Below, in pieces: positions 6,134 through 49,286 of a stretch of DNA of 64,000 bases; within the stretch, counting starts at the first letter, position 1; every line of letters begins with the position of its first letter. A program made the translations under genes and the position numbers. The DNA comes from Melieria omissa (Eukaryota > Arthropoda > Insecta > Diptera > Ulidiidae): NCBI GenBank assembly GCA_963971225.1, contig OZ020269.1, positions 22,318,921 to 22,382,920 of the forward strand, in the 5' to 3' direction. Under the pieces are notes generated by a model. It was not told the DNA's origin. It saw nothing but the letters and a program-made list of their open reading frames with translations, and ran no database searches.

Positions 6134-6881
6134 CCAGGTATGCGCCTATGAAACGATGCGCCGGTAACGACATCTAGCGGTAAATAGCCGAATACTTATA
6201 AACTTCGGAACCGTACCAAATGTCATGTTTACTTCTTCTGTCATATGTCAACAATATTCAGTTCACAATTTGTCAAGTTTCATCCAACAACGCATTGTTT
6301 GACGCTCCGGAAAATGTCGGATTACGTGCCTACAAATTACGATTTGCGGACACAGTTAATTTTGTGTTACCATTTGAAGAAAAAAACCTTCTAAAACCTG
6401 GTGAAACGGTTAACGGTGAACGTTACCAACAACAACTGGCCGATTTGAACCGTGCTATACGCCAAAAACGCCCAGAATATGAAGCCAGGCAACACAAAGT
6501 GATTTTCCTCGATGACAACGCACCACCACACCGCACTAGAGCCACCAAAGAATTGGTTGCATCGTACAACAGGGAGGCTCTTGCTCATGCGGCTTACTCA
6601 CCAGACTTGGCGCCTTTGGATTATCACATGTTCGCATCGATGGGCCACGCATTAACGGAACGGCGCTTCAATTCTCACGCAGAAATCAAAAAATGGATCG
6701 ATGATTGGTTTCAGGCAAAAGACGAAACATTTTTTTGGCGAGGCATCCATAAATTGCCTGAGGATGGGAAAAATGTGTAGCTTGCGATGGCCATTACTTT
6801 GAAGAATAAAATTGTCAAATCATTTTCTCACAATAAACGTGTTTTTTCAAAAATAATTACCGGTTTCATAGGCGCATGTGG
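6134..6881 (+). mobile_element. mariner-family element, internally deleted, with both TIRs
   Basis: The left end CCAGGTATGCGCCTATGAAA and the right end, read inward, CCACATGCGCCTATGAAAC form terminal inverted repeats with a perfect ATGCGCCTATGAAAC core. TA dinucleotides flank both ends (6132-6133 and 6882-6883), as expected for Tc1/mariner insertion. The element is 748 bp, well short of the usual 1.3 kb. It keeps only the C-terminal part of the transposase (6220-6780). It cannot mobilise itself but could respond to a related transposase. Confidence 0.85.
6220..6780 (+). pseudogene. mariner transposase, C-terminal fragment
   Basis: The frame carries the second and third catalytic positions of a D,D34D mariner transposase. 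The second aspartate is in FLDDNAPPH. The third is in YSPDLAPLDYH, exactly 34 residues after it. ELLKPGETVNG-type and ERYQQQL-type sequence precedes them. The N-terminal DNA-binding helix-turn-helix and the first catalytic aspartate (GDE region) are gone; the first ~60 residues of the open frame look like a deletion junction. The gene lies between the TIRs of the 6134-6881 element and ends 100 bp before the right TIR. It cannot be catalytically active. Assignment to mariner is secure; subfamily is not. Confidence 0.85.
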
Positions 6882-8640: not shown

Positions 8641-9355
8641 TTGTTATTACGCCATTAATGCGTCACAGATCACATTACATCATCAAATCAAATCACATCA
8701 CAGCAAATAACATAGCATCACAAAACATCACATCACATCAAATAGCATCACAGCATATCAGATCAGAACATGTGCCATGAAATAACATCACGTCACATCA
8801 CACCATATCACATCAAATAACATCACATTATATAAGATCACATCAATAATATCACATCAAATAGCATCACATCACATCACATCACCACATATCACATCAA
8901 ATAACATCATATCACTTAACAACATATCACATCAAATAACATCACATCACATCACAACATATCATATCAGATAACATCACATCATTTCACAATATATCAT
9001 ATCAAATAACATCACATCAAATAGCTTCACATTACATCACATCACATCAAATAACATCACATCAAACAGCATCACATAACGTCACATCACATCACATCAC
9101 ATCACATCACATCACATCACATCACATCACATCACATCACATCACATCACATCACATCACATCACAACACATCACATCACATCACATCACATCACATCAC
9201 ATCACATCACATCACATCACATCACATCATATCACATTACATCACATAACATCACATCACATCACAACATATCACAACAAATAACATCACATCACTTTAC
9301 AACATATCACATCAAATAACATTACATCAAATAGCATCACATCACATCACGTTAC
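8641..9355. repeat. ATCAC pentanucleotide satellite
   Basis: About 700 bp built from ATCAC. The core at roughly 9085-9235 is nearly perfect ATCAC repeats. The flanks carry a higher-order pattern in which ATCACATCAAATAAC-like variants and ACATATC interruptions recur every 40-60 bp. The gradient from perfect core to diverged edges suggests growth by slippage from the centre. Confidence 0.9.
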
Positions 9356-14285: not shown

Positions 14286-14800
14286 GTTATTTTATTTTAA
14301 TATATTTAATTTTATTTTATTGTATTTTATTGTATTTTATTTTATTTTATTTTATTTTATTTGATTTTATTTTATTTTATTTTATTTTATTTTATTTTAT
14401 TTTATTTTATTTTATTTCATTTTATTTCATTTTATTTTATTTTATTTTATTTTATTTTATTTTATTTTATTTTATTTTATTTTATTTTATTTTATTTTAT
14501 TTTATTTTATTTATTTTATTTTATTTTATTTTATTTTATTTTATTTTATTTTATTTTATTTTATGTTATTTTATTTTATTTTATTTTATTTTATTTTATT
14601 TTATTTTATTTTATTTTATTTTATTTTATTTTATTTTATTTTATTTTATTTTATTTTATTTTATTTTATTTTATTTATTTTATTTTATTTTATTTTATTT
14701 TATTTTATTTTATTTTATTTTATGTTATTTTATTTTATTTTATTTTATTTTATTTTATTTTATTTTATTTTATTTTATTTTATTTTATTTTATTTTATTT
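14286..14800. repeat. (TTTTA)n microsatellite, ~515 bp
   Basis: Almost pure TTTTA pentanucleotide, with TTGTA, TTTGA and TTTCA variants in the first ~140 bp. A four-base unit near 14510 and a TTATG variant near 14565 recur about 160 bp later (near 14674 and 14724), so a ~160-bp block has been duplicated inside the array. The array directly abuts the 3' end of the truncated retrotransposon at 14801 and resumes on its other side at 15458. Long ILFYF-type frames here are artefacts. Confidence 0.97.
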
Positions 14801-15457
14801 CCACGATTTATTGAACTCCTTAAGGGTTAAATATTACATATCGGTTGTATAACAACAAGATACATAAAACTATTGCAGGTACATGGTATTTTCTTAAGCA
14901 TCTATACAATTTAACTTTCAATACTTAAAAACGAACGAACAATTGACGTTGTTGACAATATTACTGATTTTTGTATAGTCAAAAATTTATCCGCTAATTG
15001 AAGCCTCTCCAGTGTCGTCATTAATGTTTTGGGCACTACCCCTGTCGATGAAATGATGATTGGTACAATCACTACCTTGTCGAGTTGCCACATCTGTTTC
15101 AGTTCTTGGGCCAGTTGCTGATATTTCCTGCTTTTTTCCGCGATACAGTCCTGTAGGTTGTGTGTGTTGGGAACTCCGATGTCAATTAGATGTGCGTTAT
15201 TTGTCAATTTTTCGAGCAGGATAACATCTGGTCTGTTGTGCGGAATGCTCCTATCCGTCAATACTGTGCGATCCCAGTAAATCTTGAACTCGTCATTTTC
15301 TAGCACTGCACTGGGCGTATACTTATAATATGGTAATTCTTCTGTTAGCAGCTTGGTCCGTATTGCAAGGCTTTGGTGCACAATTTTTGCAACGTTGTTA
15401 TGACGCGTCAAGTATTCAGTGGCCGCTAACATTACACATGCTCCAGTGATATGTTGT
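14801..15457 (-). mobile_element. 5'-truncated copy of the microsatellite-inserted R4/Dong-type retrotransposon
   Basis: This 657-bp segment is the reverse complement of 48471-49126. The 173 C-terminal codons translate identically. In the 3' UTR I see only one substitution (TATATATGC versus TATAGATGC). The copy starts within the CCHC knuckle region, a 5' truncation typical of target-primed reverse transcription. It is flanked on both sides by TTTTA repeats (515 bp on its 3' side, about 76 bp on its 5' side). Its sense strand is therefore the A-rich strand, as in the full copy. Confidence 0.95.
14911..15432 (-). pseudogene. C-terminal fragment of the retrotransposon protein (restriction-like endonuclease domain)
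   Basis: The frame encodes the last 173 residues of the element protein, identical to the full copy's C-terminus. It includes the endonuclease core: RPD, then LIDIG 16 residues further on, then the EKSRKY lysines. The reverse transcriptase, and with it any autonomous function, is missing. The methionine at the start is simply an internal residue of the parent protein, not a true start. There is no independent promoter, and it is best read as a recent dead-on-arrival copy. The uninterrupted frame reflects youth rather than selection. Confidence 0.9.
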
Positions 15458-15533
15458 TTTATTTTATTTTATTTTATTTTATTTTATTTTATTTTATTTT
15501 ATTTTATTTTATTTTATTTTATTTTATTTTATG
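15458..15533. repeat. (TTTTA)n microsatellite, second arm
   Basis: About 76 bp of pure TTTTA on the 5' side of the truncated retrotransposon. With 14286-14800 it formed one array before insertion. It ends in TTATGTTACTTTATA. Confidence 0.95.
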
Positions 15534-17150
15534 TTACTTTATATATTTTAAACGATTTCAAAGTAATTGTATTGTATGTTTTCGAGTTATTATTATTTTT
15601 ATTATTTATTATTATTATTATTTTTTATATTACATTTGAGATATTTTATTTGGCTACCTTCAATTTTATGTACTACTTCACTGGTTGTTTTCAATGAGTT
15701 TTTTATTGCTCTTAAAAAACGTTCGCCTTAGAAATACTTGACAATCAAATAAAATTTTCCCTCATGAGACAAATGAGAAAAAAATCGCCCAAATTGGATT
15801 TACGCCCAAACCTTTCACCTTGCAATTACATGTATTTTTATATTCATTATTTGTATAGCTTGAAGAAATTTGTTCAATTTTGTAGGCTTTCAATTGAGCC
15901 GAAAAAATGTAAAAAATGTAAATGCCAATGTCTCACTTTGTGTGTGTTCACATTCGCTGCAGTATGCGGCTTTTTAATAAAATTTACCCAAACCCAGCAA
16001 ACGCCAGCCACGCTCTGACCTTCGAGAAAGACACAACCTGCTTTCTGCCTCCCTTTTCTCTGCCCATATTTACTCTCTTTAGCAGCCTTTTAAATGTTGG
16101 TAGCGGTTTGTGTTTTTTCGCTGGTTGGCTCGAGTGTTGAATAAAAAATTCGCTGGCTCAATTCATTGGTTGCAAATTATGCTACGGCAAACTGTTGGCG
16201 CAAGCTTATTGCTGCCGACATGTGTGCCAATATGCGTCGACTGTACAATGTGCGACGTGCATTACCCACACACGCGTGATTTTACGCGCAACACCTGAAA
16301 GTCAACGTGCACACTGGCTGGCGGTTCGAATTTTATTTGCCAACGCCGCACAACCAATGCATACCAATTGCCCGCACACCACAATACGCACAACAAATAC
16401 TTGCAAGTGTGCTCGCGTGTTTAACTCACACACACACACTCAAACATACACAAAGCGCACAGCTGGGGCCAGAAGTTGGCCCAAGTTAAATGCGCCAAGC
16501 AATGCAATGCGGCCGAAAATACAAATGACGCAAGCGGTTCTATCGAAATCTTCACAATGGAGCAAATTTGCGAAAACTAGTTGAAAAATTCAAGTAATAC
16601 CGACTGAATGTTGTTGATTGTTTTTGATAATTTTTAACTAACTTCGATAACTTCGATTGTTTGATGTTTCTATACTTATTTAACATAAAAAAATTATTAA
16701 TTACTTACAAATAAAAAAAAATATATTAATTTAATATAAAAAATTAATTAATTAATCGAAATTGAAACTAAACCTCCGCCTTACTTAAAATATTTCTATA
16801 TGTTTTTACGAGTTTACCAGGCTACCTCAGTCGCTTTCGCCGCTATTTTGAATAAATATCAGAAAAACAAAATCCTCTGGCAAGAAAACTAAATTTTTCC
16901 ATAGTCGCAAAATAAATCGTTTTAAGTAGTTGGGCCTTTTCTCGGCCGCTGGAGTAGTGTTGCCCCTTAATTGACGCTAATTCCGAATGGAATGAAATTG
17001 ACGGCGATGAGAATTATTTGCTACATTAAATAGACATCGATTCTGATATGAAAGTAGAGCAGGTAAAAGTAATGATGATTAATGATTTTCCATACAATTT
17101 TTTCCAGTTTTCTATCTTGAAATTTTAAGAGAGACTGCCACATAAAACTA
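15534..17150. other. Unique AT-rich non-coding sequence
   Basis: No gene recognised. ATT-rich low-complexity sequence occurs at 15585-15640 and AT-only sequence at 16680-16760. Frames at 15764-16584 have no domains; the 129-codon frame overlaps CA simple repeats. Confidence 0.45.
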
Positions 17151-36130: not shown

Positions 36131-37076
36131 TCAGGTCAGTCCATAAGTTCGAGTATAACCACTACACAAAAGTGGTTTTCCAAATTCCGCAGTGGTGATT
36201 GTGAAGCTCTGGTCGTCCTGAGGTCCTTTACTCCGACGCCTTGCTAGAACTCGTCAAAGCAGACCCAAGTTTGACAGTCGATATGCCGGCTGGAAAGTTA
36301 AATTCATCACATGGAAGAGTTTACAGGCACCTGGTTCAATTGGACAAGATTTAAAAGCTTCCATGGGTTACGCATAAACTTTCCGTCAGCAGAGAACGAA
36401 TGTGTGTTCTCAGCTGCTGCAGCGGCTTGAAAATTAGAGTTTTTTGAACTGTATTGTTACTGCGGACGAAAAACGGGTCCTTTACAATAATCCTGTTTGC
36501 TAACGCTAATGGTTAGATAAGTTGAAACACTAGCACCAACCCTCAGAGACAGCCTTCACCCCAAGAAGATTCTCCTGGCTATTTGGTGCAATATGACCGG
36601 TTCGTTTATTTTGATCTGCTGGAACCAAACCAGACGATTACAGCTGATTATTATTGCCATCAGCTATTCAAACTGAATGAAGCACTTGAAAAAAATCGAC
36701 CGTCTTTAGCCAATATACGCACAATTTTGTTTCACTACGACAACGCAAGACCGCATACCGTAAGACAGACCTTAGGCAAGCTGAATGAGCTCGGATGGGA
36801 GCTAATGCCGCATCCACCATACTCTCCGGATATTATACCTTGCGTTTATCACCTTTTCCGCGGACTTCAGTCCCATATGAGTAATAAGAACTACAACTCA
36901 AAAGGAGCTATAAAAAAGTACAAACAATTTTTTGAAATTAAAAATTTGCCTAATCGTTGGGAAAACATTGTAATTAACCCAGGAAAATATATTATTGATA
37001 AATAAATACTGAAAACTTCTTTTTATTTATTTTAAAACTACCTAAGAAAAACGCACGAACTTATGGACGGACCTGA
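36131..37076 (+). mobile_element. mariner-family element (lineage 4) with complete TIRs
   Basis: Ends carry CAGTCCATAAGTTCG (left) and, inverted, CCGTCCATAAGTTCG (right), each preceded by TCAGGT. They form 21-bp TIRs with one mismatch. TA flanks both sides (36129-36130 and 37077-37078). At 946 bp the element is shorter than the ~1.3 kb expected, so internal sequence has been lost. N-terminal transposase traces (WFSKFRSGDC, LLELVKADPSLTVD) follow the left TIR. The main remaining frame is at 36583-37005. Confidence 0.92.
36583..37005 (+). pseudogene. mariner transposase C-terminal fragment with a lost catalytic aspartate
   Basis: The frame contains HYDNARPHT, the second catalytic site, and YSPDIIPCVYHLFRGLQ, the third site. 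Counting 34 residues on from the second aspartate lands on valine where a D34D enzyme has aspartate. Catalysis is therefore lost even before counting upstream stops. Sequence before 36583 shows more transposase in other frames (SRERMCVLS, LLRTKNGSFTII) separated by stops. The C-terminus ends 70 bp before the right TIR, as in intact mariners. The family is secure. Confidence 0.88.
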
Positions 37077-41269: not shown

Positions 41270-41880
41270 GGAACATGCTGTAGTGAAGATGGAAGATGTA
41301 ATCGTAGCTAGTTAACAGTGCTTTTGAAGAATCTTTTTTGTCCAAGTACTCAAAATAGATGAATCATAGCAGATTTACAGTTTCTTCGAAGAATCTGTAT
41401 GATTCCAGTACTCCATATAGAAGTAATCGATGCTATGTTAGTCTCTTTGAAGAATCTGTATGGTTCCAGTACTCAATATGGATGTAAGCGTAGCTGGGTT
41501 AGTCTCTTTGAAGAATCTGTATGGTTCCAGTACTCAAAACAGATGTAATCGTAGCTGGGTTAGTCTCTTTGAAGAATCTGTATGGTTCCAGTACTCAAAA
41601 CGGATGTAATCGTAGCTGGGTTAGTCTCTTTGAAGAATCTGTATGGTTCCAGTACTCAAAAGAGATGTAATCAAAGCTAAGTAAGTCTCTTTGAAGAATT
41701 TTTATGGTCCCAGTACTAAATATGGATGCAATCGTCGCTAAGTTAGTCTCTTCGAAGAATCTCAAAGTACTCAAAAAATAGTAGTGAGTGTAGTATCATT
41801 GAAGGATCTGTTTGGTGTCAGTATCCAATAAAGTATAATTGTGGTTGATTTACAGTCTCAATGATGGATTTGTTTTAGCT
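41270..41880. repeat. 61-bp minisatellite
   Basis: The phrase GTCTCTTTGAAGAATCTGTA starts at about 41441, 41502, 41563, 41624 and 41685, then 41746 with changes: an exact 61-bp period over at least six units. Each unit continues GGTTCCAGTACTCAAAA and GATGTAATCGTAGCTGGG. The middle units are almost identical; units at both edges (41290-41400 and 41760-41880) are diverged. There is no spacer variation, so it is not CRISPR-like. Confidence 0.95.
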
Positions 41881-45375: not shown

Positions 45376-45503
45376 GTAAAAAATAAATAAAATGAAATAA
45401 AATAAAATAAAATAAAATAAAATAAAATAAAATAAAATAAAATAAAATAAAATAAAATAAAATAAAATAAAATAAAATAAAATAAAATAAAATAAAATAA
45501 AAA
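45376..45503. repeat. (AAAAT)n microsatellite, 5' arm
   Basis: About 125 bp of AAAAT repeats, slightly irregular at its start (AAATAAATAAAATGAAAT) and then perfect up to the 5' end of the retrotransposon. The same repeat resumes at 49127. Confidence 0.95.
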
Positions 45504-48500
45504 TGCAACTAACTAATGCGAAAATGCAACTAACTTGGCAAATTCTCAAACAGCAACAAGTGTTTTAATGGTTGAGCCATTAACCACCAGAGCTGTATCC
45601 CCCACGCAACGCATGAAATGGACAGTAGAAATGAATGAATTCATCATGCGTAGCTACTACAAGATAACCCAAAATGAGACGAAAACAAGCGGATATAGAC
45701 CACGGCTACTTGAAGCCTTTCAACAAGCATTTCCAACTATAAAGGTAAATGTGCAACGAATAGGCGACCAGCGAAGCGCAATTATTAGAAATAAGTACAT
45801 ACCGGCGCGCAGACTGGCGGAAATAAAGCAAGAAGTGGCTAAAGATATAGAACGGGAACGTGTGTATCAACAAGAAGATGAAAATCAAGATCAAAATAAT
45901 TCCAATGACAACTTAGCATCAACCACAGCAAGACCAAATGAGATACTTGACAACCAACAACCTGACTTACAAAGTGGACCAATGCAGAATAAACAAACTG
46001 ACACCAACGAACTTTATACAAAGCTTAATCTCGAGTTTCAATGTGCAATAAATGAATTTGATGGAACTGACCCACTACTTCGGCCACCTGTTCCGAAACA
46101 GAGCTCGACAAGAGCAATAGCAATAGCAGCTAATTGTATGAATAGCCAAATACTGCCAATATATCTAGAAGCAAATGTCAATACTTTTGACAAACTACAA
46201 ACATCGATCTATGCTGCAGCTGTTGCAATTGTACGTTTTGTAGGTGGGAAGATTAAGCCACAGAATACACCCACCTCACGCACACGGAACGCTGCACCAG
46301 CTTGGAAGCAAAGACTCATGCGCCAAGTCGAAGATCTTCGGGCCCACCTTGGGCGGCTGACTCAATATATTGCAGGAAACAGGAGTGCAAAGGTGATCAA
46401 GTGGTTTGAGGAAATCAAAGTGAAATACAAATTTCACTCGAAACATGACCCACCAAACAACACTGCTGAGCTCCTACGCGATACATTGCGACAAAAACTG
46501 CAATTAAAAGCAAATCGGCTGCGTAGATATACTTTGTCTGAAAAACGCAGGGAAGCTAATACAACCTTTCAGAGGAGTGAAAAGAATTTCTATAGACGAA
46601 TGCGGAAAGAAGATACAGGCGCAATCGATGAAGTGCCTGAGATAAAGCACATTGAAAGCTTCTGGAAATCAATATGGGGTCAAGCTGGTGAGCATGCGGC
46701 AAACGCAACGTGGATTAACAAGCAATATAAAGAAGCGGAAAAAATCAATGTGATGGAAAATATCACACTAGTAGAGAAAGATGTAAGTGATGCCATCAAG
46801 AAGGCACACAACTGGAAAGCCACAGGACCTGACAATATCCATAACTTCTGGATCAAAAAACTTACTTGCACTCATGCATATATGGCAAGGTTCTACACAA
46901 TATTTCTTCAAGATACCTCACAAGTACCGAAGTTTTTAACCAAAGGACAAACATACCTGCTACCGAAGGACAAAAATAACACTAAAGACCCAGCAAAATA
47001 TCGACCTATTACGTGTTTGTGTACGCTTTATAAATTATTGACATCGTGCATAGCAAATAAACTGTATCGGCACTTAGAGGCGCATAAAATCTTGGCGATC
47101 GAGCAAAAGGGTTGCGTAAAGCACTCACAAGGCTGTAAAGAACAGCTGCTAATAGACTCGGTTGTAATGGAGCAAGCTTATCATAAGCAAAGAAATATAT
47201 TTACAGCGTATATTGACTACAAAAAAGCTTATGATAGTGTACCGCATTCATGGCTCCTAGAAGTGTTAAAAATCTATAAAATAGCACCAAATATCATAAA
47301 TATCTTACGATATTTAGCAAATACTTGGGAAATAACACTCAATTTAAGAACTAACAAGGGTCTTCTGAAGTCTTCGCCAATATGTATTAGAAGAGGCATC
47401 CTGCAAGGGGATAGCCTAAGTCCCTTATGGTTCTGTCTTGCGCTTAATCCGCTCTCCTCTCTTCTTAATGCAACTAAACTCGGGTTTAATGTGAAAAGTG
47501 CTGATTCTTACAAAATCACACACCTCCTTTATATGGATGACATAAAATTGTACGCAGGATCTGAACGTCACATAAATGAACTGCTTCAAATTACAGAAGA
47601 TTTTTCACGAGACATATGTATGTCATTTGGACTGGACAAATGCAAACGGTTTAGTGTTGAAAGCGGAAAAGTTGTCCTGCGAGAGTTTCCGTTAACAAGT
47701 AACGAAACTATAAATGCAATGGATGACGATGATGCCTACAAATATTTAGGCATCATGCAAACAAGGAGAATCCATCATAATACTATGATACGAAATGTTA
47801 CGGACTCCTTCCTGCACAGAACCAAGGCTCTCTTAAAATCGTGCCTTAACGGGAAAAACTTGTTCAAAGCAATAAACACGTATGCTGTTCCGGTGCTAAC
47901 ATATACGTTCGGTATATTGAAATGGTCCGACACGGAATTGGAAAGCGTTAAGAGAGCGACGCGCACTTTGCTTACAAAGTATGGAGCACATCACCCAAAG
48001 TCAGCAATCGAGCGAATAAACCTACCCAGAAGCTTAGGAGGCCGTGGATTAATAGACATTCAGCATCTTTGCAAAAAGCAAATCTCTAGCTTGCGCCGAT
48101 ACTTTCTACAACAGGACACTGCATTACACATAGCGGTATGCAAAGCCGATGACAAATATACGCCACTTAACCTAAAAAATGCGACGCCCCAAGACGAAGC
48201 AACAGACATCATGCGCATTGACAAGTTATTGGAAGAATGGAAGATGAAATCGTTGCATGGCAAACATCCACATGCCTTAAGTCAAGCTGATATCGACGCC
48301 CCTGCCTCAAATCTGTGGCTCAAACAAGCGGGCATTTATGCGGAAACTGAAGGACTCATGCTCGCGATCCAGGACCAGGTTATTGCAACCAGAAATTACC
48401 TAAAATATATTGCACGCGCTGACATTAACAACGACAAATGCCGGAAATGCCAACAACAACCGGAAACGATACAACATATCACTGGAGCATGTGTAATGTT

Positions 48501-49126
48501 AGCGGCCACTGAATACTTGACGCGTCATAACAACGTTGCAAAAATTGTGCACCAAAGCCTTGCAATACGGACCAAGCTGCTAACAGAAGAATTACCATAT
48601 TATAAGTACACGCCCAGTGCAGTGCTAGAAAATGACGAGTTCAAGATTTACTGGGATCGCACAGTATTGACGGATAGGAGCATTCCGCACAACAGACCAG
48701 ATGTTATCCTGCTCGAAAAATTGACAAATAACGCACATCTAATTGACATCGGAGTTCCCAACACACACAACCTACAGGACTGTATCGCGGAAAAAAGCAG
48801 GAAATATCAGCAACTGGCCCAAGAACTGAAACAGATGTGGCAACTCGACAAGGTAGTGATTGTACCAATCATCATTTCATCGACAGGGGTAGTGCCCAAA
48901 ACATTAATGACGACACTGGAGAGGCTTCAATTAGCGGATAAATTTTTGACTATACAAAAATCAGTAATATTGTCAACAACGTCAATTGTTCGTTCGTTTT
49001 TAAGTATTGAAAGTTAAATTGTATATATGCTTAAGAAAATACCATGTACCTGCAATAGTTTTATGTATCTTGTTGTTATACAACCGATATGTAATATTTA
49101 ACCCTTAAGGAGTTCAATAAATCGTG
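45504..49126 (+). mobile_element. Apparently full-length R4/Dong-type non-LTR retrotransposon in an AAAAT microsatellite
   Basis: A 3.6-kb element flanked on both sides by (AAAAT)n. It has a very short 5' region (about 60 bp, containing a 21-bp tandem duplication of an AAAATGCAACTAACT unit), one long reading frame, and a 109-bp 3' UTR ending AATAAATCGTG against the array. There are no LTRs. A site-specific position plus a C-terminal restriction-like endonuclease is typical of the R2/R4/Dong group. In known members of this group, R4 targets rDNA and Dong targets TAA repeats. The intact frame and a near-identical second copy at 14.8 kb indicate recent activity. Confidence 0.92.
45568..49017 (+). 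CDS. Retrotransposon polyprotein: reverse transcriptase plus restriction-like endonuclease
   Basis: 1149 codons without a stop from the first ATG. The open frame extends 5' to 45517 without another ATG, so non-AUG initiation is possible. Residues ~14-85 (KWTVEMNEFIMRSYY ... QRIGDQRS) look like a helical, Myb-like DNA-binding region. The reverse transcriptase spans ~420-730: GPDNI (420), YRPITCL (478), AYIDYKKAYDSVP with catalytic D550, GILQGDSLSP (610), LLYMDD (YMDD 655-658) and KYLGI (726). A CCHC knuckle follows (C958, C961, H970, C975). The C-terminal nuclease of PD-(D/E)xK type has RPD 1043-1045, LIDIG with D1060, and EKSRKY (~1075-1080). It should nick the microsatellite target and reverse-transcribe its own RNA there. 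All catalytic residues I can check are present. No apurinic (APE) endonuclease or RNase H is visible. Confidence 0.95.
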   Translation: MVEPLTTRAVSPTQRMKWTVEMNEFIMRSYYKITQNETKTSGYRPRLLEAFQQAFPTIKVNVQRIGDQRSAIIRNKYIPARRLAEIKQEVAKDIERERVYQQEDENQDQNNSNDNLASTTARPNEILDNQQPDLQSGPMQNKQTDTNELYTKLNLEFQCAINEFDGTDPLLRPPVPKQSSTRAIAIAANCMNSQILPIYLEANVNTFDKLQTSIYAAAVAIVRFVGGKIKPQNTPTSRTRNAAPAWKQRLMRQVEDLRAHLGRLTQYIAGNRSAKVIKWFEEIKVKYKFHSKHDPPNNTAELLRDTLRQKLQLKANRLRRYTLSEKRREANTTFQRSEKNFYRRMRKEDTGAIDEVPEIKHIESFWKSIWGQAGEHAANATWINKQYKEAEKINVMENITLVEKDVSDAIKKAHNWKATGPDNIHNFWIKKLTCTHAYMARFYTIFLQDTSQVPKFLTKGQTYLLPKDKNNTKDPAKYRPITCLCTLYKLLTSCIANKLYRHLEAHKILAIEQKGCVKHSQGCKEQLLIDSVVMEQAYHKQRNIFTAYIDYKKAYDSVPHSWLLEVLKIYKIAPNIINILRYLANTWEITLNLRTNKGLLKSSPICIRRGILQGDSLSPLWFCLALNPLSSLLNATKLGFNVKSADSYKITHLLYMDDIKLYAGSERHINELLQITEDFSRDICMSFGLDKCKRFSVESGKVVLREFPLTSNETINAMDDDDAYKYLGIMQTRRIHHNTMIRNVTDSFLHRTKALLKSCLNGKNLFKAINTYAVPVLTYTFGILKWSDTELESVKRATRTLLTKYGAHHPKSAIERINLPRSLGGRGLIDIQHLCKKQISSLRRYFLQQDTALHIAVCKADDKYTPLNLKNATPQDEATDIMRIDKLLEEWKMKSLHGKHPHALSQADIDAPASNLWLKQAGIYAETEGLMLAIQDQVIATRNYLKYIARADINNDKCRKCQQQPETIQHITGACVMLAATEYLTRHNNVAKIVHQSLAIRTKLLTEELPYYKYTPSAVLENDEFKIYWDRTVLTDRSIPHNRPDVILLEKLTNNAHLIDIGVPNTHNLQDCIAEKSRKYQQLAQELKQMWQLDKVVIVPIIISSTGVVPKTLMTTLERLQLADKFLTIQKSVILSTTSIVRSFLSIES

Positions 49127-49278
49127 AAAAATAAAATAAAATAAAATAAAATAAAATAAAATAAAATAAAATAAAATAAAATAAAATAAAATAAAATAAA
49201 ATAAAATAAAATAAAATAAAATAAAATAAAATAAAACAAAATAAAATAAAATAAAATAAAATAAAATAAAATCAATCA
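49127..49278. repeat. (AAAAT)n microsatellite, 3' arm
   Basis: About 150 bp of AAAAT repeats directly after the element's 3' end, with one AAAAC variant near 49237, ending in AATCAATCAAAATAAAAATTT. In the opposite reading this is TTTTA, the same repeat that holds the truncated copy. Confidence 0.95.
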
Positions 49279-49286
49279 AAATAAAA

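Follow-up and report, generated by a model that had tools for sequence, protein, structure and literature searches.

An R4/Dong-like retrotransposon of Melieria omissa and the microsatellite arrays that flank it

A retrotransposon copy in a 64,000-nucleotide stretch of the Melieria omissa genome (the window; contig OZ020269.1, positions 22,318,921 to 22,382,920) stands between two arrays of AAAAT repeats. Is this pentanucleotide microsatellite the target of the element, a product of its insertion, or one instance of a wider class of targets? Comparison of copies across the 490-Mb host assembly points to an R4/Dong-like non-LTR retrotransposon, probably active or very recently active, that in all likelihood inserts by target-primed reverse transcription (TPRT) into short A/T-rich tandem arrays; these are (AAAAT)n where the copies lie on C1-C3, and (TAA)n for those on C4 or C16.

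The copy in the window and its protein

The array on the 5' side of the copy (45380-45502, plus strand) contains 24.8 repeat units with 96% matches by Tandem Repeats Finder, and the array on the 3' side (49128-49286, plus strand) contains 31.8 units with 94% matches. We read both as target DNA; they are clearly long, beyond chance, yet slightly impure. A 16-base filler that resembles nearby element sequence (ATGCAACTAACT..) occupies the 5' junction (45503-45518, plus strand), and homology to the other copies of the family, which we call family A, begins at 45519. An earlier note on this DNA had placed pure AAAAT repeats directly on both sides. Arrays do lie on both sides, but they are imperfect and the 5' array is separated from the element by the filler.

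The family A copy itself (45519-49127, plus strand) is about 303 bp shorter at the 5' end than the 3912-bp copies, represented by L002, to which L003 and L004 align over the full length. Its single ORF (45535-49017, plus strand) encodes 1160 amino acids from a TTG with no stop inside, and the open frame spans 1166 amino acids, compared to 1239 in the full-length copies L002-L004. The uninterrupted frame described earlier is therefore confirmed, whereas the word "intact" holds for the ORF and not for the 5' end. The 3' UTR (49018-49127, plus strand) ends in ..AATAAATCGTG; other copies mostly end in ..CGTGG plus 3, 5 or 6 A, followed by the first T of the array. A second, 5'-truncated family A copy (L039; 14802-15457, minus strand), with 99.7% identity over 656 bp, is also flanked by AAAAT arrays on the minus strand, at 14287-14800 on its 3' side (TTATT on the plus strand) and at 15457-15550 on its 5' side (TTTTA on the plus strand).

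A reverse transcriptase with YMDD, a CCHC knuckle and a PD-(D/E)xK nuclease had been proposed for this protein, and all three are supported by a Pfam match and by conserved residues in an alignment of 43 proteins, the window protein plus 42 homologues. The reverse transcriptase domain (46978-47754, plus strand; residues 482-740) matches RVT_1 with an E value of 2e-27, and its YMDD motif is encoded at 47530-47541. In the alignment, the knuckle (48439-48492, plus strand; residues 969-986, C-x2-C-x8-H-x4-C) has invariant C969, H981 and C986 and a nearly invariant C972. The restriction-like endonuclease core (48622-48873, plus strand; P1055-D1056 ... D1071 ... K1087/K1090), placed from the alignment and a predicted model, has invariant P1055, D1056, K1087 and K1090, and position 1071 is D in 36 proteins and E in 7. 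Near the N terminus, a three-helix segment (45619-45795, plus strand; residues ~29-87, predicted helices 31-44, 54-65 and 73-85) carries W29, which is present in 38 of the 38 proteins having a letter at that column. Structure matches of the model barely cover this segment, and the name Myb/SANT-like is given to it by position only, following PMC7998251.

The best structural matches of the predicted model (pLDDT 88.5) are R2 TPRT structures; sequence identity is 20% for one of the top two and 17% for the other. Among 7996 scored candidates, 81 were protein homologues, with a best identity of 56%; those with names include sequences from Lepidoptera, Diaphorina and beetles. The names R4, Dong and Rex6 do not occur among the 81 homologues shown, most of which are nameless. 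Placement in the R4/Dong clade is likely. No relatives were found in phage records, and none of the 6 stretches of viral contigs that fit a pattern was a relative.

Repeats at the junctions on C1-C3, C4 and C16

In all 43 copies read on C1-C3 (39 tabulated plus L061-L064), the 3' junction enters AAAAT in a single orientation. In 37 of the 39 tabulated copies AAAAT also lies no more than 100 bp from the 5' junction; L027 has none on the 5' side, and L007 has none at that distance. The earlier note had proposed the AAAAT microsatellite as the home of this lineage, to be checked by tabulating junction flanks in the host assembly. On C1-C3 this proposal stands, as copies are not mostly outside AAAAT. 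Family A is young, and 30 of the 39 tabulated copies are at least 99% identical to L002.

Exact 3' termini, defined by the same 18-base 3' end, number 109 genome-wide: 97 on C1-C3, 7 on C4 and 5 on C16. A strict pattern, TAAAATAAAAT, lies within 12 bases of 74 out of 85 of these termini, scored by eye in the range to C3:31.24 Mb; 12 further C3 copies lie past that point. Four of the 11 misses were read and do have AAAAT (only 12 bp in L057), and the other 7 were pattern-scored only.

The same terminus meets a different repeat elsewhere. (TAA)4 lies within 25 bases of 12 out of 12 exact termini on C4 and C16, compared to 0 of 97 on C1-C3. AAAAT is thus not the sole target, and the description "AAAAT-specific" is too narrow; the target looks like the A/T-rich short tandem arrays that the chromosome offers. 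The 12 TAA copies fall into two tight clusters and therefore represent few independent TAA insertions, at most about four loci, including C4:20.8 and C4:30.82 Mb. Since clustered copies lack independence, we make no use of a Fisher test relating chromosome to repeat (43/0 versus 0/3). A search of L085 for the 3' end of the copy at C4:30.82 Mb did not find it, and the single C29 relative examined has no array in 1.4 kb. Two related but divergent families show the same split, with family B in AAAAT (C1/C2) and family B' in TAA (C4).

What sets the target

It is quite possible, though we hold this tentatively, that the element recognises A/T-rich short tandem arrays as a class of DNA, and that families A and B/B' each follow the array dialect of the chromosome. 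The dialects would be AAAAT on C1-C3 and TAA on C4 plus several small contigs, with the scarcity of AAAAT on C4 judged from 24 kb of C4 and arrays placed for part of C1 only. The target would be set by the chromosome together with pairing of the A-rich RNA end to the T-rich strand once nicked, and the protein would need to change little if at all. If true, recognition of a DNA class would account for the easy moves of this clade between microsatellites.

Possible too, and slightly less likely, is the presence of two lineages with strict specificities, an older Dong-like TAA branch surviving as the C4 and C16 copies, plus a younger offshoot that switched to AAAAT and expanded on C1-C3, such that the split reflects history rather than array supply. 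The TAA copies with known identity, at 93-94% and 97.9%, are indeed older than most AAAAT copies, and B and B' are alike at the 3' UTR end and differ over the remainder of the compared stretch. However, two strict lineages would require an identical TAA/AAAAT switch in families A and B, both along the same chromosomes. In addition, only 9 of 542 bounded TAA array starts lie on C1-C3, and this near-absence means that strictness is unreadable from C1-C3 alone.

A third explanation, very unlikely and largely refuted, is that the arrays belong to the insertion, with an AAAAT tail made by slippage and 5' arrays that are earlier tails hit again. In its favor, all 11 pure AAAAT runs of at least 20 bases in the window are inside the four arrays flanking the two copies, stacked copies occur (L022 and L043), and the tail appears to begin with A's copied from the RNA. 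This last point, which also speaks for TPRT into arrays, comes from the A-run class, which tracks haplotype (A5 9/10, A6 0/4; Fisher p 0.005, post hoc); the A3 class, however, is found with both haplotypes. Yet bounded AAAAT array starts number 1608 genome-wide, and the first 100 fall, by eye, into ~74 separate places spanning C1:2.0-27.8 Mb. One of these places adjoins a family A copy (L004) and the stretch holds 6 such copies, a comparison that counts exact-terminus family A only, not other families or other termini. Reversed controls of the two array patterns (292 and 2019 matches) are themselves repeats and so provide no null. Furthermore, 34 of the 39 tabulated copies are 5'-truncated, and arrays abut many different truncation points. 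Because arrays exist without the element and the same 3' terminus precedes TAA on C4 and C16, AAAAT is a target and not a part of the element. The earlier concern that the flanking repeats might be element sequence did not materialise, as AAAAT arrays far outnumber copies in the listed stretch of C1.

Hardly credible is near-random insertion in A/T-rich DNA with selection purging copies elsewhere: the window is A/T-rich (GC 0.36), but all 43 copies read share one orientation, the strict pattern occurs, once the window's arrays are masked, at 12 of 62,590 positions on one strand and at 0 of 62,590 on the other (unmasked, at 248 and at 535 of 63,960; the background also includes genome pattern counts of array starts), and the near-identity of 30 of the 39 copies to L002 leaves little time for selection.

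TPRT into A/T-rich arrays is supported by the domains, the single orientation, the arrays on both sides of nearly all tabulated copies and the frequent 5' truncation. For its course, we envisage that the N-terminal helical domain would grip the array and that the C-terminal nuclease would nick its T-rich strand (...TTTTA or ...TTA), releasing a T-rich 3' end. The RNA would anneal to this end through its own 3' terminus, ..CGUGG followed by a few A's, and be copied from it, and the second strand would be finished at the 5' end. The repeat used would depend on the array available on the chromosome.

These copies form a natural series in which site-specific retrotransposons occupy two related microsatellites of a single genome, in part as members of the same family. 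Target change in restriction-endonuclease LINEs therefore becomes testable with few proteins and oligonucleotides. An element that settles in renewable repeats outside genes also has appeal as a platform for inserting genes harmlessly.

Comparison with known systems

R2 resides in 28S rDNA, and R4 of nematodes has the same domain order as family A; family A differs from both in that each of its 43 copies read on C1-C3 sits in an AAAAT array. Dong and R4 carry an HDV-like ribozyme that cuts at the 5' junction, according to PMC3774820, whereas family A shows no clear one. No HDV family appeared when L002 (600-1800) and the 5' loci of four relatives were scanned with Rfam, at E values up to 1 and 2, the first 110 bases fold little better than shuffles (z -0.68), and all 13 solutions of a brute-force double-pseudoknot search have a single weak 5-bp P1; an HDV-like ribozyme at the 5' end is not claimed. 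As a separate observation, a covarying 5' RNA pseudoknot is common to the families compared and is a candidate for the feature by which the protein grasps its RNA.

Other microsatellite-specific non-LTR elements are Togen, a NeSL-related element in (TG)n (PMC4640811), and Mino, an R1-clade element in AC repeats (PMC3124438); their clades and repeats differ from those of family A. In the open-licence literature, judged by the titles and abstract openings of the top matches, we found neither an AAAAT-targeting retrotransposon nor such a chromosome split. The AAAAT target and the split thus appear to be without precedent in the literature searched, and Dong in (TAA)n is already known.

The closest comparison is with the R4/Dong clade as a whole. 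According to PMC7998251, its members combine a reverse transcriptase and a restriction-like endonuclease with an N-terminal Myb/SANT-like region, and insert in rDNA or microsatellites, with (TAA)n the target in most insects, molluscs and cnidarians; DongAg and DongBg are located in microsatellites (PMC3636483). Family A likewise has one ORF in the order reverse transcriptase, CCHC knuckle and C-terminal PD-(D/E)xK-type nuclease, and likewise inserts in microsatellites. It differs from Dong, with its known TAA target, in being chiefly in (AAAAT)n; among its 109 copies with the exact terminus, TAA is the site of 12.

Target repeats of family A and its relatives

The R4/Dong-like non-LTR retrotransposon of the window, family A, was compared across the host assembly by reading its flanks. 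Two DNA searches gave 45 and 41 matches (40/145 and 40/141 candidates scored); 60 loci were fetched, and removing 18 duplicates left 42 copies with flanks. Three of these (L020, L024, L025), diverged and clustered on contig C4, were handled separately; the other 39 all lie on C1-C3. AAAAT stands at the 3' junction in all 39 (in L057, just 12 bp) and within 100 bp of the 5' junction in 37, the exceptions being L027, with other sequence in its place, and L007, where an element piece comes first and AAAAT lies farther up. With four additional copies (L061-L064, AAAAT at the 3' end in 4/4), the combined C1-C3 count is 43/43, in a single orientation throughout. In 34/39 copies the 5' end is truncated, at many different break points and with AAAAT at the truncation point in nearly all, which is the pattern expected from target-primed reverse transcription.

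Genome-wide, the exact 18-base 3' terminus has 109 matches (C1 40, C2 32, C3 25, elsewhere 12), and its reversed control has none. In the range up to C3:31.24 Mb, TAAAATAAAAT occurs within 12 bases of the terminus in 74/85 copies, compared by eye (C1 32/40, C2 30/32, C3 12/13). L003, L019 and L035, with impure arrays, and L057 account for four of the 11 misses; the other seven were unread. Background on the two strands of the window is 12 and 0 of 62,590 positions with arrays masked, and 248 and 535 of 63,960 unmasked. (TAA)4 within 25 bases of the terminus gave 55 matches, representing 12 distinct copies, two of which were read directly. TAA follows 0/97 exact termini on C1-C3, whereas it follows 12/12 elsewhere; the split by chromosome is complete because these are all 12 copies off C1-C3. 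Since they fall in two clusters, seven at C4:23.640-23.656 Mb and five at C16:0.207-0.221 Mb, each on one strand, they represent few independent events. The earlier note had proposed an AAAAT microsatellite as the home of this lineage. That reading is partly supported: it stands for C1-C3, where every copy read has AAAAT at its 3' junction, but copies with the same terminus on C4 and C16 lie in TAA.

Further family A copies lie in TAA on C4, at 20.8 Mb (L020 and L025, TAA on both sides, 93-94% identity) and at 30.82 Mb (a 5' end, 97.9% identity over 572 bases). A protein search of the host genome (40/5671 candidates scored) recovered relatives with 41-49% protein identity. We read the 3' flanks of 13 and grouped them by 3' UTR likeness: family B has AAAAT in 3/3 (C1, C1, C2), family B' TAA in 2/2 (both C4), and family C TAA in 7/7 (three on C4, three on C11 in apparently one cluster, one on C20); one relative on C29 has no array within the stretch read. 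The 3' UTRs of B and B' have terminal bases in common, ending in GGGGAGAGAGGCCGTGGG. The same chromosome split thus recurs in two families, because B/B' and family A each meet AAAAT or TAA by chromosome.

Arrays and the full-length element

L002 measures 3912 bp, and both L003 and L004 align with it over its entire length; CTCCGTGCGG directly follows the array in all three. The window copy (45519-49127, plus strand) lacks about 303 bp of L002 and carries 16 bases of filler. The earlier observation of an element between AAAAT arrays was confirmed overall; its description as intact holds for the ORF but not for the 5' end. Another window copy (14802-15457, minus strand) is also flanked by AAAAT arrays on both sides.

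The possibility that the repeats are the element's own part was not borne out among the arrays listed. Bounded (AAAAT)6 starts number 1608 genome-wide, and the first 100 listed represent about 74 separate places, counted by eye, in C1:2.0-27.8 Mb. This range holds six exact-terminus copies, one of which, L004, is adjoined by an array place (C1:27.383 Mb), so arrays there far outnumber family A and most listed C1 arrays have no adjoining terminus. Bounded (TAA)10 starts total 542, with 1 on C1, 0 on C2 and 8 on C3; TAA arrays are characteristic of C4 and other contigs and hardly of C1-C3. Among fetched loci, a biased sample with overlaps counted repeatedly, 257 kb from C1-C3 contain 296 AAAAT and 0 TAA runs, and 24 kb from C4 contain 28 TAA and 0 AAAAT runs.

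Among matches listed to 30.89 Mb, clusters at C4:18.16-18.35, 20.75-21.27 and 30.84-30.89 Mb contain long TAA arrays at intervals of a few kb, all on the same strand within a cluster, a pattern suggestive of tandem amplification of TAA arrays together with Dong-like elements nested in them. COX1-like sequence is not limited to contig C164: many stretches of it occur on C3 and C4, four nearly full-length (two on each), probably through recent transfer of mitochondrial DNA to the nucleus. The window also holds a degenerate 682-base ATCAC tandem array (8669-9350), a 61-base tandem repeat of 7.6 copies (41294-41762), and ORFs at 6220-6780 and 36583-37005 that resemble mariner-type transposase fragments (DNAPPHRTR, DNARPHTVRQT).

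RNA structure and the 3' junction

Families A, B, B' and C have in common a motif, some 240 bases in from the 5' end, that folds into an H-type pseudoknot (L002:1414-1510; L078:1001-1097; L079:54-150, minus strand; L080:1162-1258). In an alignment of seven sequences, six distinct, its 7+7 bp (14 pairs) are 98.8% paired over 84 cells with five pairs changed on both sides, figures that are biased in the structure's favour because it was drawn from the same sequences. None of 500 shuffles matched its percentage paired, cells changed on both sides or covariation score; 33/500 equalled it for pairs changed on both sides and 490/500 for further pair types. Sliding the structure drops the paired share to 21-46%. 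Being common to AAAAT and TAA families, the pseudoknot alone does not set the target. The motif resembles the Rfam guanidine-III riboswitch (L002:1411-1474 and L078:1003-1061, both 18.9 bits, E 0.27 and 1.1, well below the gathering score of 36); although found in two families, this is probably a chance resemblance between pseudoknots.

The fixed orientation implies that the T-rich strand would supply the primer. Of the 39 tabulated copies, 15 have three A's after ..CGTGG (three of these 15 with an extra G first), 10 have five, four have six, one has nine and none has four; the remaining nine have other 3' forms, one being CGTG plus four A's. One haplotype is present in 9/10 copies with five A's versus 0/4 with six (Fisher p 0.005, a post hoc comparison counted by eye), and the three-A class occurs with both haplotypes. 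Because the five- or six-A class follows haplotype, the first A's look templated by element RNA, judging from sequence. The RNA may end in or read into an A-rich tract, which could base-pair with the T-rich primer.

Comparison with known elements

Silkmoth R2 has a 5' pseudoknot. R2 proteins are also described as binding structured RNA, with a pseudoknot in the 3' UTR (PMC12222951). HDV-like ribozymes are described at the 5' junction in R4 and Dong (PMC3774820); none was demonstrated here by Rfam scans of L002 and four relatives' 5' loci or by a hand-written search. Among the best matches in the open-licence literature, we found no report of an AAAAT target, of one family in two repeats, or of a split by chromosome, and as far as could be seen all three are apparently new. 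Compared by description, family A likely belongs to R4/Dong. It works in like manner to Dong, and DongAg and DongBg are described as located in microsatellites (PMC3636483).
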